Shown here one piece after another: positions 1 to 64,000 of a stretch of DNA of 64,000 nt. Source of the DNA: Periplaneta americana. Lineage: Eukaryota; Arthropoda; Insecta; Blattodea; Blattidae. The DNA lies in contig NC_091128.1 in NCBI RefSeq assembly GCF_040183065.1, positions 177,305,668 to 177,369,667 of the forward strand, in the 5' to 3' direction. Both the position numbers and the translations under genes were made by a program. Each line of letters begins with the position of its first letter. Position 1 is the first letter of the stretch. Under the pieces are notes generated by a model that did not search any database, was not told the origin of the DNA, and worked only from the letters and a program-made list of their open reading frames with translations.

Positions 1-150
1 AAATATCTTTGGGGAGACCGAAACGTAGATGGGAGGATAATATTAAAATGGATTTGAAGGAGGTGGGATATGATGATAGAGACTGGATTAATCTTGTTCA
101 GAATAGGGACCGATGGCGGGCTTATGTGAGGGCGGCAATGAACCTTAAGA
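1..150 (+). pseudogene. 3' end of an RTE-like non-LTR retrotransposon ORF
   Basis: The first 148 bases encode the C-terminal end of the reverse-transcriptase polyprotein that recurs at least seven more times in this window. The frame shows RWEDNIKMDLKEVGYDDRDW and then RAYVRAAMN. The copy enters from outside the window and stops where the usual Leu-Arg-Val-Pro-stop would be; the sequence then turns into unrelated DNA without the AAT tail seen on other copies. It shares the variant GACCGAAACGTAGATGG-type spelling with the copy ending near 29.8 kb, so the two belong to one subfamily. It is a dead fragment with no expected function. Confidence 0.85.
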
Positions 151-1103
151 GCCATAACTGGTAACTGATGGAGTTAAGGTCATCAGGCTTTCTAAAATTA
201 AATTTGAAAAAGAGGGGCGTAAAGATGAAGAACGACTTGAAGATAAACTTGATAACGGCGAATAAGAAAGGCAGTAGGAAGCGACAGGAGAAAAGAAAAC
301 GCATGAAGAAGGAGAAAGGGACAGGGAAGTAAGAGAAACGGAACGCGATGTTGATATTGATAAAAGTAGAGGACGCAGTCGATGTTAATACCGCTGATTA
401 GGAGCAAGAAAGCGCCGGCCTGGAGATTCATGGGGAGTTGATGGGGGCGCCCGCAGTAATTTCCAGCCCTCTGGCATTAACGGCCGCCCCTCTCGGTACT
501 TTTAATCCCTCGAATTCCGAACTCTCCGCCTCGAGTCCCATAAACGTCAGCAGACTCCGCAGCTCTCAGCCTGGCAGTCCGATCTTTATTTAGGTTATGG
601 TTACCATAAATCTTTGATTTACGACTCTGTGTATTCTGGGCTCCATACAGGTCCCACTGATTGACAGGCTCGGCTCGAAGTCGCGATGTTTTGATTTGAG
701 TCCAATGACTTATTGACCCCTATTTCGCTTCAAGTCGTAAAAGTTCCGTTCCCAAGTAAAGGGCGAGTGGTATCCTATGTCACGGCGCATTTCTGTGTTC
801 CCAGGTCACCTTTACTCTTTCTCCTGACCTATGCTCCCAGCTTGCTCTCCGGTGGTCTAGCAGTGATCGTACCTACCCCTCAACCGAAGTAAGTGTCCAT
901 AACTGATAACTCTAGGCCAGAATTTTTTATTACTACAACTTCTTTCAACTGCAATTCAGAAAACATCGATAGTCATTCAAAAAGCAACAATTGTATTTCG
1001 GATTAATCAAGTGAATTTCAGAATAGGTCACACGTAATTCAGGTAGTGCAACTGAAACTCACAAAAATTAATTTTATTTTATTTCAGAGAATGTAGATTG
1101 TAA
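151..1103. other. No gene recognised; purine-rich then moderate-GC unique sequence
   Basis: Bases 200-360 are strongly purine-rich (GAAG/AAGGAGAAAGG type). Bases 440-890 have higher GC than most of the window, with several CpGs. Bases 900-1100 return to AT-rich DNA. Open frames are under 80 codons and match nothing I recognise. Confidence 0.4.
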
Positions 1104-2336
1104 TCTATACTAATAATAAATCTGTAGCCGAAATTTTTCTGGTAATTTTCGATTTTCCAAAAATAATTGGCCCTAACATATATAATTAACCACCCTGAAA
1201 CCGAAAATCGCTTTTTTGACATTTTTGTTTGTATGTCTGTCTGTATTTTTGTTACCTTTTCACGCGATAATGTCTGAACGGATTTCGATGAAAATTGGAA
1301 TATTAATTAAGTTCGATGTAACTTAGATTTTAGGCTATATGGCATTCAAAATACATTATTTAAAAGGGGGTTATAAGGGGGCCTGAATTAAATAAATCGA
1401 AGTATCTCGCTTATTATTGATTTTTGTGAAAAGCGTTACATAACAAAAGTTTCTTTAAAAATAATTTGCGATAAGTTTTATTCCTTGAAAAATTTTGATA
1501 GGACTGATACTTAATGAGATAAATGAGTTTTAAAATTAAAATAATTGCCATCTAAGGCCGTGTAATGAATTAAAAAACAAATGACTTCGTCTATAAGGGG
1601 CCTTGGACAGCAACAATCGAAAGCTATGAAAGATAGCCTACAGAGAATGTTTCTGTGTTTGTATGAAGTAATATCGGAAGATAAATTAACCGATTTGTAT
1701 AATTAATTATTATTTCACCATTGGAAAGTGTAGTTTGTCTAGATGGACATGATGCTATAATGTTATTACAGTAACTTCTGATATAATATAATATAATATA
1801 ATATAATATAATATAATATAATATAATATAATATAATATAATATAATATAATATAATATAATATAATATAATATAATATAATATAATATAATATAATATA
1901 ATATAATATTATATTATATTATATAATTTAAGTTATTTGAAGGGTTCAGAACCATAGTGGGCCAAACGCCATTTACTGAATACGTAGAAAACAAGGGTTA
2001 AAATTAAGTTATTACCATAATTCAATGGAAACCTATAACAAGTAAAATAAAATATACACATTAAATCTAAATGATGTCAATCTTCATTAAACTATGGTTG
2101 CATGTAATAAAAATTAAGAAACATGTTAAAGGAATTGCCATTGCACCAAATGAGTGTCTCTGGACCAAAATGATCGCATTTTGATTATTTGGATGCAATT
2201 TAAATTAAGTAACATATTAAAGGATTTATCCTTCTATCAAACACGAATGTTCCCTGGATCAAATGTCCTATTTTAATTATGTAATTACTTTATATTTATT
2301 TCTAACGGGTGCAGCGGAGCGCACGGGTACGGCTAA
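1104..2336 (+). mobile_element. Non-autonomous Helitron, family 1, copy 1
   Basis: The element starts with TC (TCTATACTAATAATAAATC) and ends in CTAA. A GC-rich terminal hairpin (outer stem GTGC...GCAC around GCGGAG, 2310-2323) lies about 10 bases before the end. It sits between an A and a T with no target duplication. These are the established hallmarks of Helitrons. Two other copies with the same ends lie on the minus strand (16812-17872, 41460-42893), and a fourth starts at 62883. Shared internal text includes a stretch near 1945 about 'gggccaaacgccatttactg'. No Rep/helicase frame is present, so it must have been mobilised in trans. It carries a private TATAA array. Confidence 0.85.
1776..1925. 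repeat. (TATAA)n pentanucleotide array inside a Helitron
   Basis: About 150 bases of almost perfect TATAA repeats turn into ATATT-type repeats at the right edge, so the last part is a short inverted copy. Sister Helitron copies lack the array, so it expanded after this insertion. Confidence 0.9.
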
Positions 2337-2426
2337 TTCAGAAATAAATTGCGACTGAGATTAATAAATCATCTAATGTAACTTTATTCAGATTGTGCAA
2401 AAAAAAAAAAAATGAAATTGTAAGGG

Positions 2427-2505
2427 AGTCATTTGTTTGGTAGTCATGGCAACTGGCTCTTTCGTTTATGTTATTGTATTACAGTTTAAATGTTAACGTA
2501 AAACG
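2427..2505. repeat. Left copy of a ~79-bp direct repeat flanking a Helitron
   Basis: This stretch (starting GTCATTTGTTTGGTAGTCAT) recurs at 4247-4325 with only a few substitutions. The two copies bracket the Helitron at 2525-4233. Helitrons do not make target duplications, so the repeat needs another explanation. Confidence 0.85.
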
Positions 2506-2524
2506 TGTGATATTTATATTTAGA

Positions 2525-62254: not shown

Positions 62255-62665
62255 TGAAATATTTCTTAATTAATCTTAAATAATACATTATTCAGTAAAT
62301 CACTCCAAACCAAAGGGAATACAGCGTGGATTTTGTACGTAGATACTTTGTTTATGTTGGCCACATTGTGCATCATGTTTATGTAAATAAATACAAATGA
62401 CACTCGTCTTACGGTTGGGGAAGTCCTCGGAAAAAACTCCAATCAGGTAATAAATCCAAGAGGGAAACGAACCCACGGGCAGTACAACTCTGGATCATCA
62501 GACAAACGCACTACCGCCTGAGCTACGTCTGTGGCAACGTGTTTCTTAATTTATTTTAAATACATTATTAAGTAAATCACTCCAAACCAAAGAGAATACA
62601 GTACGAAGATACTTTTTTGTGTTGGCCACATTGTGGATCATTGTCTATGTAAATAAAGATAAATG
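62121..62665. repeat. ~270-bp tandem duplication carrying SINE copies
   Basis: Segments 62121-62397 and 62398-62665 align along their full length. The shared text includes AGTAAATCACTCCAAACCAA and TGTTGGCCACATTGTG. Divergence is moderate, so the duplication is old. Confidence 0.75.
62400..62534 (-). mobile_element. tRNA-derived SINE, second family, copy 2
   Basis: Minus strand: A box GACGTAGCTCAGGCGGTAG, B box GGGTTCGTTTCCCTC (degenerate), then ATTACCTGATTGGAGTTTTT. It arose with copy 1 by the segment duplication, and its 3' part is cut at the duplication junction. Confidence 0.72.
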
Positions 62666-62882
62666 AAAATTAGCATAGCACATAAGAGTTACTTTAAGAA
62701 ATACAGAAAGCAAACATGAATAATGTTTAGTCTGTGATTCTTAATCAGCTTGGGATAAAAAATAGCAATAAAAATGGTATGAAATAGAAAGTACGTACTA
62801 ATCAGATTATAGGCCTAATAAACAGTAAATAGAACATTAAATAAAAAAAATATATGTGGAGTAAACCTTACGAAATAATTAA
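62666..62882. other. No gene recognised
   Basis: AT-rich spacer. Confidence 0.3.
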
Positions 62883-63474
62883 TCTATAATAATAATAAAT
62901 CTGTAGCCAAAATTTGTCTGGTAATTTTCGATTTTCCAAAAATAATTGGTCCTAACATATATAATTAACCACCCTGAAACCGAAAATCGCTTTTTTGAAA
63001 ATTTTGTTTGTATGTCTGTCTGTCTGTATGTTTGTTACCTTTTCACGCGATAATGGCTGAACGGATTTCGATGAAAATTGGAATATTAATTAAGTTCGTT
63101 GTAACTTAGATTTTAGGCTATACGGCATTCAAAATACATTATTTAAAAGGGGGGTTATAAGGGGGCCTGAATTAAATAAATCGAAATATCTCGCTTATTA
63201 TTGATTTTGTGAAAAATTTTACATAACAAAAGTTTCATTAAAAATGATTTGTGATAAGTGTTATTCTTTGAAAAGTTTTGATAGGACTGATATTTAATGA
63301 GATAAATGAGTTTTAAAATTAAAATAACTGCCATCTAAGGCGGTGTATTGGAATAAAAACAAATGACTTCGTCTATAAGGGGCCTTGGGCAGCAACAATC
63401 GAAAGCTATGAAAGATAGCCTACAGAGAATGTTTCTGAGTTTGTATGAAGTAATATCGGAAGCTAAATTAATTG
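62883..63474 (+). mobile_element. Helitron, family 1, copy 4, interrupted by a LINE
   Basis: It starts TCTATAATAATAATAAATC and follows copy 1 closely through GACTTCGTCTATAAGGGGCC and TATGAAGTAATATCGGAAGC. It then departs at about 63475, where LINE sequence begins. The rest of the Helitron probably resumes beyond the window. Confidence 0.82.
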
Positions 63475-63967
63475 TTATTCATCATCTTTTACAGTACCCA
63501 CCTCGCGTCAATGGAATTCCTTGTCACAAAGTATTAGGGGCTGCAAGACAATAAACACCTTTAAGAACAGCTTAAAAGATAACCTTCTTAGCATTTCACT
63601 CCAATCATACTGATTTTAACTATCACTGTCTACATTGTTACTTCATTCTTTAGACATCATCCTGATAGTGCTGTATTTTTTAAATTGTCTCATAATAATC
63701 TCTTTCTATTATCTAACATTATTTGAAATATATTAACATTCTATGTATTTTAGTTTAATTCTGCTACATAGTTTGTATTTCAGTGTTTAATTAATAGTTC
63801 ATAGTATTTTGTTGTTTAATTCGTAAATAACTCTTGTATACATGTAACTCTCATCTAAATCAAATTGTTGAATTCTTTGTAAGTTCATGCATATGTATAT
63901 ACTCTTTTTGCTGGTTGAGTGGAAGAGAAGGCCTTACGGCCTTAACTCTGCCAGCTAAAATAAATCA

Positions 63968-63998
<31 letters not shown>

Positions 63999-64000
63999 TA
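63475..64000 (+). mobile_element. 5'-truncated LINE with class B tail, running off the window
   Basis: A short C-terminal ORF2 remnant is followed by about 310 bases of AT-rich 3' UTR. The terminal stem-loop GAAGGCCTTACGGCCTTAAC follows (from about 63928), then CTCTGCCAGC and ATT repeats to the window edge. It inserted into the Helitron above. Confidence 0.8.
63476..63613 (+). pseudogene. C-terminal tip of LINE ORF2
   Basis: In the frame whose TGG codon is at 63512, the product is TVPTSRQWNSLSQSI, then RGCKTINTFKNSLKDNLL, ending at TGA 63611-63613. The W-N-S-L...F-K-N-S-L-K pattern is the same terminal block seen in the LINE at 9920-10360, here from a different lineage. The 63-codon frame one register over (from 63363) is a shadow that also crosses the Helitron junction. 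Confidence 0.7.

Follow-up and report, generated by a model that had tools for sequence, protein, structure and literature searches.

TA-flanked GGCC and GGC words in the American cockroach genome as probable excision scars of a Tc1/mariner-type transposon

Sleeping Beauty and mariner transposases nick DNA three bases inside the element and leave three-base 3' overhangs on the flanks, and the footprint equals these overhangs, as set out in the available portion of PMC7827188. Passer leaves footprints of 0-4 bases and ZB footprints of 0-3 bases, according to the available excerpts of the literature, and the Sleeping Beauty footprint has been printed as TAG(T/A)CTA (PMC2874221). The DNA elements in the genome of the American cockroach, Periplaneta americana, fall mainly into two groups, one of them Tc1-Mariner, according to the accessible part of PMC12774602. 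Here we analyze 64,000 bases of that genome (assembly GCF_040183065.1, contig NC_091128.1, positions 177,305,668 to 177,369,667, forward strand; hereafter the window), in which the word TAGGCCTA (TA-GGCC-TA) and its shorter siblings TAGGCTA and TAGCCTA are strongly over-represented. These words are very likely the excision scars of a Tc1/mariner-type cut-and-paste transposon with GGC ends.

Within the window TAGGCCTA occurs 32 times, against a mean of 0.53 (sd 0.80, maximum 4) in 100 shuffles that preserve dinucleotide composition. Relative to first-order composition, AGGCCT is similarly in excess (57 against 6.0 expected), as are TAGGCTA (19 against 3.2) and TAGCCTA (26 against 2.9), and once tandem repeats are removed TA-core-TA words reach 65 times expectation with the core GGCC and 8 times with GGC or GCC. 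The initial annotation had estimated about 45 AGGCCT by eye together with dozens of TAGGCTA or TAGCCTA, and had held TAGGCCTA to lie far above chance and not within compositional expectation; the counts bear this out, in the window and beyond it. Across the genome (3,231,669,367 bases counted in 91 contigs), TAGGCCTA is found 457,526 times, or once per 7.1 kb, where the reversed word gives 16,914, and TAGGCTA with its complement 615,663 times, where the reversed word gives 187,645. Measured against this rough control, the excess amounts to ~441,000 four-base and ~428,000 three-base words, ~0.87 million together, and several hundred thousand such scars appear to be present in the cockroach genome. 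The window, with one TAGGCCTA per 2 kb, is denser than 20 evenly chosen 10-kb stretches, which hold 17 in 200 kb, very unevenly distributed. Among the matches listed, seven TAGGCCTA spaced 84 bases apart lie at G000:C1:1034003-1034514, in what seems to be a tandem array containing it, and TAGGCTA stands at fixed places common to old repeat families of the window; because of these two observations, part of the genome-wide words must be counted as multiplied along with a host repeat.

Tandem repeats mask 14,612 of the 64,000 window bases, and 30 of the 32 TAGGCCTA fall outside them; the remaining two (31441 and 45691) fall within ATT/AAT microsatellites or on their margins, so that the initial annotation's remark that the words avoid satellites is fair. 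The groups that it placed at 16.1-16.7, 32.2-33.5 and 43.0-43.3 kb do exist, but clustering as such is not significant, with a neighbor within 300 bp at 13 of 30 sites against 8.65 under the null (p = 0.12). The sites, each a putative scar, are as follows.

11690..11697, unstranded, TAGGCCTA, exact word
16177..16184, unstranded, TAGGCCTA, exact word
16332..16339, unstranded, TAGGCCTA, exact word
16522..16529, unstranded, TAGGCCTA, exact word
16676..16683, unstranded, TAGGCCTA, exact word
18748..18755, unstranded, TAGGCCTA, exact word
21899..21906, unstranded, TAGGCCTA, exact word
24657..24664, unstranded, TAGGCCTA, exact word
25718..25730, unstranded, double scar TA-GGC-TA-GGCC-TA, TAGGCCTA starting at 25723
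26834..26841, unstranded, TAGGCCTA, exact word
27189..27196, unstranded, TAGGCCTA in LINE (long interspersed nuclear element) copy, insertion shown by 20 homologues with TA only
27756..27763, unstranded, TAGGCCTA in LINE copy, insertion shown by 13 homologues with TA only
28257..28264, unstranded, TAGGCCTA, exact word
28672..28679, unstranded, TAGGCCTA, exact word
28839..28846, unstranded, TAGGCCTA, exact word
31441..31448, unstranded, TAGGCCTA at edge of ATT microsatellite, exact word
32651..32658, unstranded, TAGGCCTA, exact word
32705..32712, unstranded, TAGGCCTA, exact word
32771..32778, unstranded, TAGGCCTA, exact word
33322..33329, unstranded, TAGGCCTA, exact word
33530..33537, unstranded, TAGGCCTA, exact word
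34066..34073, unstranded, TAGGCCTA, exact word
40650..40657, unstranded, TAGGCCTA, exact word
40988..40995, unstranded, TAGGCCTA, exact word
43007..43014, unstranded, TAGGCCTA, exact word
43108..43115, unstranded, TAGGCCTA, exact word
45691..45698, unstranded, TAGGCCTA within AAT microsatellite, repeat continuing on both sides
46777..46784, unstranded, TAGGCCTA, exact word
48610..48617, unstranded, TAGGCCTA within terminal inverted repeat (TIR) element, exact word
52474..52481, unstranded, TAGGCCTA, exact word
57427..57434, unstranded, TAGGCCTA, exact word
62810..62817, unstranded, TAGGCCTA, exact word

That the words are inserted sequence between duplicated TA, as the initial annotation proposed, is seen in LINE copies of the window and, genome-wide, at a single TA described below. 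In the self-alignment of the window, a LINE copy with two scars differs from its relative by two clean 6-bp insertions, each of which turns TA into TAGGCCTA. A second LINE copy has TAAGTTA (window 9198) at the very TA that holds TAGGCCTA in the copy at 27756. The features concerned, with two three-base sites at microsatellites, are these.

27085..27905, minus strand, LINE copy with two scars, 92% identical to 52769-53577 by self-alignment
52555..53577, plus strand, LINE copy serving as insertion reference
9198..9204, unstranded, TA-AGT-TA scar in other LINE copy, 8 homologues with TA only
29377..29383, unstranded, TA-AGT-TA scar in LINE copy, 7 homologues with TA only
38618..38624, plus strand, TAGGCTA (TA-GGC-TA) scar adjoining TAA microsatellite
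46409..46415, plus strand, TAGGCTA scar within AAT microsatellite

We extended the comparison to a sample of 326,064 bases, comprising the 20 10-kb stretches, a scar-rich region of 38 kb, eight short loci and the window, and checked at each word whether the other copies of the surrounding repeat were empty or filled. Of the 83 TAGGCCTA sites compared in this way, eight had a usable homologue, none of them identically filled; at four of the eight the homologues have only two bases, exactly TA at three, and three further sites align poorly. Random TA-N4-TA controls (n=700) gave 167 with a homologue, of which 99 were filled and 1 empty, and random TA-N3-TA controls (n=700) gave 192, of which 134 were filled and 0 empty. 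Exact empty TA copies were found for 3 of 26 GGC/GCC, 3 of 31 CAG/CTG and 3 of 39 AGT/ACT sites, and filled homologues for 20, 15 and 30 sites, respectively, many of which are family-wide or tandem-array words. The CAG/CTG class, which we take to be the Sleeping Beauty type, is also present as clean insertions. Wherever TAGGCCTA could be polarised, the alternative that it is ancestral and merely deleted in some copies did not hold.

The initial annotation had also proposed tabulating small insertions among transposable-element copies, and a survey of every 3-12-base insertion between repeat copies, made with no motif chosen (297 loci), shows TA duplication at 7 of 16 insertions of five bases and 4 of 9 of six bases, with a fifth ambiguous, and at 0 of 28 of seven bases. 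Among the 12 commonest classes listed, TA duplication is one reading among several in 7 of 83 loci at length 3 and in 4 of 116 at length 4; at length 8 it is one reading among several at 2 of 18, and at length 11 the only one at 1 of 4. Similarly, in 36 LINE alignments (16,210 bases, 7.6% divergent), six of the nine insertions of at least three bases are TA-X-TA, with the cores ACT, GCC, GGCC, GGCC, GTCG and GGTC; a seventh (window 29,377) reads TA-AGT-TA when aligned with other copies, and the last two are an 18-base, duplication-like insertion and a three-base one. TA-X-TA scars are therefore the most frequent small insertions in the LINE copies of the sample, in small numbers. A palindromic and very frequent word such as TAGGCCTA might suggest a conserved binding site or a regulatory word under selection, which we consider scarcely credible here: the word arises de novo at a TA in LINE copies and microsatellites, with that TA duplicated, and is accompanied by its siblings TAGGCTA and TAGCCTA. 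Moreover, only 6 of 84 TAGGCCTA sites lie in repeat-covered DNA, although such DNA makes up 31.9% of the sample, a low share that we attribute to the longer time over which older DNA could accumulate scars.

A single TA followed through the whole genome shows many scars. At a well conserved LINE position with the prefix TCCAGAAATGCATA, 73,221 exact copies have an empty TA and 222 have GGC after it, and the reversed pattern is found 0 times. We read 40 of the 222 TAGGC copies, namely the first listed minus one fetched before: 23 begin TA-GGCC-TA, 14 TA-GGC-TA and three are irregular, so that 37 carry TA-GGC(C)-TA, with recognizable LINE on the far side in 35. Past the scar LINE was not recognized in 2 of the 23 (L182 and L206), of which L206 keeps the first LINE bases. 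At L182, TATGCAGGGTGTTTCC replaces the LINE after TAGGCCTA and occurs nowhere else in the data examined; it may be another element at the scar or, conceivably, the start of a donor, and cannot be classed. Another five copies, with A or G after GGC, look like variant scars; in L166, for instance, the junction of TAGGC with the flank lacks a few bases. Small deletions or filler occur at L165, L166, L177 and L186, and the filler of the irregular L177 is apparently copied from the flank, as in break repair.

Among 100 listed of the 247 copies with a three-base core at this TA, the cores are GCC (33), GGC (30), AGT (12), GAC (7) and ACT (6), with a further twelve cores, CAG once; GGC and GCC are equally frequent (p = 0.80). 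One pair among the seven GAC copies, separated by 295 bases, may stem from a single event, as may L188 and L189, by duplication. Median distances between scarred copies are 0.144 for GGCC and 0.113 for GGC, and to 15 empty copies 0.121 and 0.107, while the nearest neighbor is an empty copy for 9 of the 37 scarred copies. Scarred copies are thus about as far from each other as from empty ones and do not form one scarred subfamily.

Scars of both lengths, three and four bases, prefer RTA...TAY flanks. The outward base is T at 0.43-0.47 and C at 0.28-0.29 of scars, against 0.33 and 0.18 for all TA, and the flanks of CAG scars stay near background. Given this shared preference, GGC and GGCC scars probably have one source. 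Nor is the three-base form simply TAGGCCTA minus a random base, since TAGCCTA is enriched and TGGCCTA shows no excess. The same flanks bear on break healing by a telomerase-like activity, in which each 3' end of a cut TA would receive TTAGG and the two would be joined as TAGG-CCTA. The telomere of the species is AACCT in the accessible part of PMC12774602, and TAGG-CCTA is what a head-to-head telomere join would look like; however, the base before the scar TA is mostly A or G, with T below background, GGC is not obtainable from the telomere repeat and the GGC/GCC sibling class therefore contradicts the idea, TAGGTA is not enriched (27 against 25.5 in the window) and TTAGGCCTAA occurs 0 times in the window, which together make it wildly improbable. 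Scars of PIF/Harbinger or ISL2EU elements instead of Tc1/mariner might be suggested by the GG/CC-rich ends of Harbinger, which are GG(G/C)CC in the available text of PMC4423477. Yet PIF/Harbinger duplicates the three bases TWA and ISL2EU duplicates AT within AATT, as far as the accessible part of PMC4482050 states, whereas here TA alone is duplicated and the target is RTAY, and we regard this alternative as very unlikely.

Excision by a Tc1/mariner-type transposase remains the best-supported reading, as the initial annotation suggested when it compared the words to excision footprints of TA-targeting transposons. Insertion at a single TA, duplication of that TA, equality of GGC and GCC and a target preference shared by both lengths are observed, as are CAG and AGT classes of the same form, numerous scars at one TA that fall outside any one subfamily, and irregular products. 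From these we infer a GGC-ended element as the cause, a three-base overhang and an annealing step. Such an element would insert at TA, preferably RTAY, and duplicate the TA; on its departure the transposase would cut one strand three bases into the element, leaving each flank with the three-base 3' overhang GGC. Overhangs paired in register would have one central G-G mismatch, and repair would give TA-GGC-TA or TA-GCC-TA; paired through their self-complementary GC, with one base filled in on each strand, they would give TA-GGCC-TA. Since overhangs that differ only at the middle base are repaired to either of two complementary cores, the pairs GGC/GCC, AGT/ACT and CAG/CTG look like such cores, and the equality of GGC and GCC together with the parallel CAG/CTG and AGT/ACT classes fits Tc1/mariner excision. 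In support, the sample contains 13 TA-flanked inverted-repeat elements whose ends match the CAG class. Joining out of register should be possible only for an overhang that ends in a self-complementary pair, and by this reasoning CCG-ended elements should leave CCGG. Among four-base forms, TACCGGTA ranks second in enrichment (9 sites against 2.2 expected), and the window holds one CCG-ended element, which together lend the prediction small support:

47727..49465, unstranded, CCG-ended element with TA-flanked inverted ends CCGTAGAA, donor-type, of another end class

This element is 1.7 kb long, with inverted ends CCGTAGAAGAGGGTAAAGTC and no open frame of more than 100 codons, and itself holds a TAGGCCTA.

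Alternatively, the element might have had a four-base overhang GGCC, which as a palindrome pairs without mismatch, with the three-base scars a cutting variant. Another four-base core, CGAC/GTCG, is also a clean insertion: at L145:4370 a clean four-base TA insertion has the core CGAC, which matches no element end read here. But both scar lengths are about equal in the genome-wide excess, the LINE TA has 14 three-base against 23 four-base scars among the 40 copies read, all in one orientation, and the other main classes have three-base cores, so that we think a four-base overhang improbable, if clearly less so than the other alternatives.

Several observations weigh against a GGC-ended Tc1/mariner donor. 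No TA-flanked inverted repeats with GGC ends were found in the 326,064 bases, and in none of the 45 LINE copies that have TAGGC at the LINE TA was a GGC-ended element recognized (L182 cannot be classed); with no such element found, excision is what we infer from the anatomy of the scars in the sequence. A stricter recount of TA-flanked inverted-repeat elements, which drops pairs whose homology continues outside the TA, leaves 13 with CAG ends, three with CAC, one with CCG and none with GGC or AGT; nine of the 13 CAG pairs are among those listed, where many other pairs are inverted LINE copies. Two AGT-ended candidates failed this recount. The word excess is 79 for GGC and 78 for GGCC, together about twice that of CAG (77), yet GGC donors number 0 against 13 for CAG, so the absence of a GGC donor is odd. 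Moreover, scar number does not follow donor number, because CAG ends, the commonest donors seen, account for one of the 100 listed cores at the LINE TA, and because three CAC-ended elements exist and TA-CAC-TA is not enriched. At L123, one of the eight TAGGCCTA sites with a usable homologue, the homologue holds the one-base variant TAGACCTA, so that some scars have been copied with their host repeat. One-base variants are also uneven, CAGGCCTA and GAGGCCTA being enriched ~3-fold and TGGGCCTA not, and the reversed word behind the genome-wide excess is a rough control. Of eight transposase loci read, ends were readable at three, none of them GGC: CAG at L155 (Tc1, a head-to-head pair), CAC at L154 and CGAG at L157 (mariner). 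The GGC-ended element may by now be rare or gone.

Tc1/mariner-superfamily DDE transposases are themselves plentiful in the genome, and none is tied to GGC ends. A first look gave 26,193 candidates for PF13358 and 19,038 for PF01359 genome-wide, and all of the 150 scored for each matched. No ends were recognized at L153/L156, L158, L159 and L160, and no repeated end sequence was recognized in the words after TAGGC. The mariner at L157 (G000:C15:165131500-165133500) has an open frame of 387 codons and ends that begin CGAGG, and many of the 150 scored PF01359 matches share its open-frame length or score. L153 and L156 belong to a 352-codon DDE_3 family with no visible terminal repeats in 4.4 kb, and transfer RNA-like stretches adjoin them, by eye. 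In viral contigs we found no relative of the LINE protein, and paired TAGGCCTA among the matches listed there stand at chance level by a rough estimate made with no control.

The window also holds five tandem arrays at 6391-8148, 18818-20663, 36967-37809, 49895-51686 and 55425-57180, with units of 117, 122 (243), 70, 82 and 55 bases, respectively. Two adjacent open frames at 22034-23791 (222 and 337 codons) encode a protein that is perhaps transposon-derived. At 58478-59447 a 338-base repeat is present three times, and its copies differ at a GGCC-ATAC-GGCC spot, which is not a TA-type insertion.

A bolder reading, to which we give slightly less than even credence, is that a GGC-ended, TA-targeting and mostly cut-and-paste transposon underwent about a million germline excisions in the cockroach lineage and then almost vanished, so that it is known only by its scars. 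If so, the scars would rank among the main sources of small insertions here and would form a site-specific, datable record of transposon activity. Counts of DNA transposons usually rest on copies still in place, and scars record those that departed; if several hundred thousand of them can be read, cut-and-paste history, target choice and break-repair choices would become measurable from an assembly, extinct families included. The scars also call for caution, in that a palindrome can be enriched as a product of repair rather than as a binding site, and in that small insertions should not be taken as random in such genomes.

No literature on genome-scale scars of such a kind, or on TAGGCCTA in animal genomes, was found among the matches listed, and relative to these we regard three features as new, namely the number of scars, a four-base palindrome among the main products and the lack of a donor. 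Compared with Sleeping Beauty and other Tc1/mariner elements, the likeness lies in the duplication of TA around the element's three-base overhang, within the available portion of PMC7827188; the differences here are the core GGC, the frequent four-base palindrome GGCC, the size of the genome-wide excess and a donor that was not found. Mariner excisions in rice, in the accessible part of PMC4423477, are alike in the superfamily, in the TA target and in footprints recognized through genome comparison. There genomes were compared and the products are described as often complex, whereas here one genome was counted by word and by LINE copy and two simple forms dominate. The kind of scar is already known, namely the footprint of Tc1/mariner elements.

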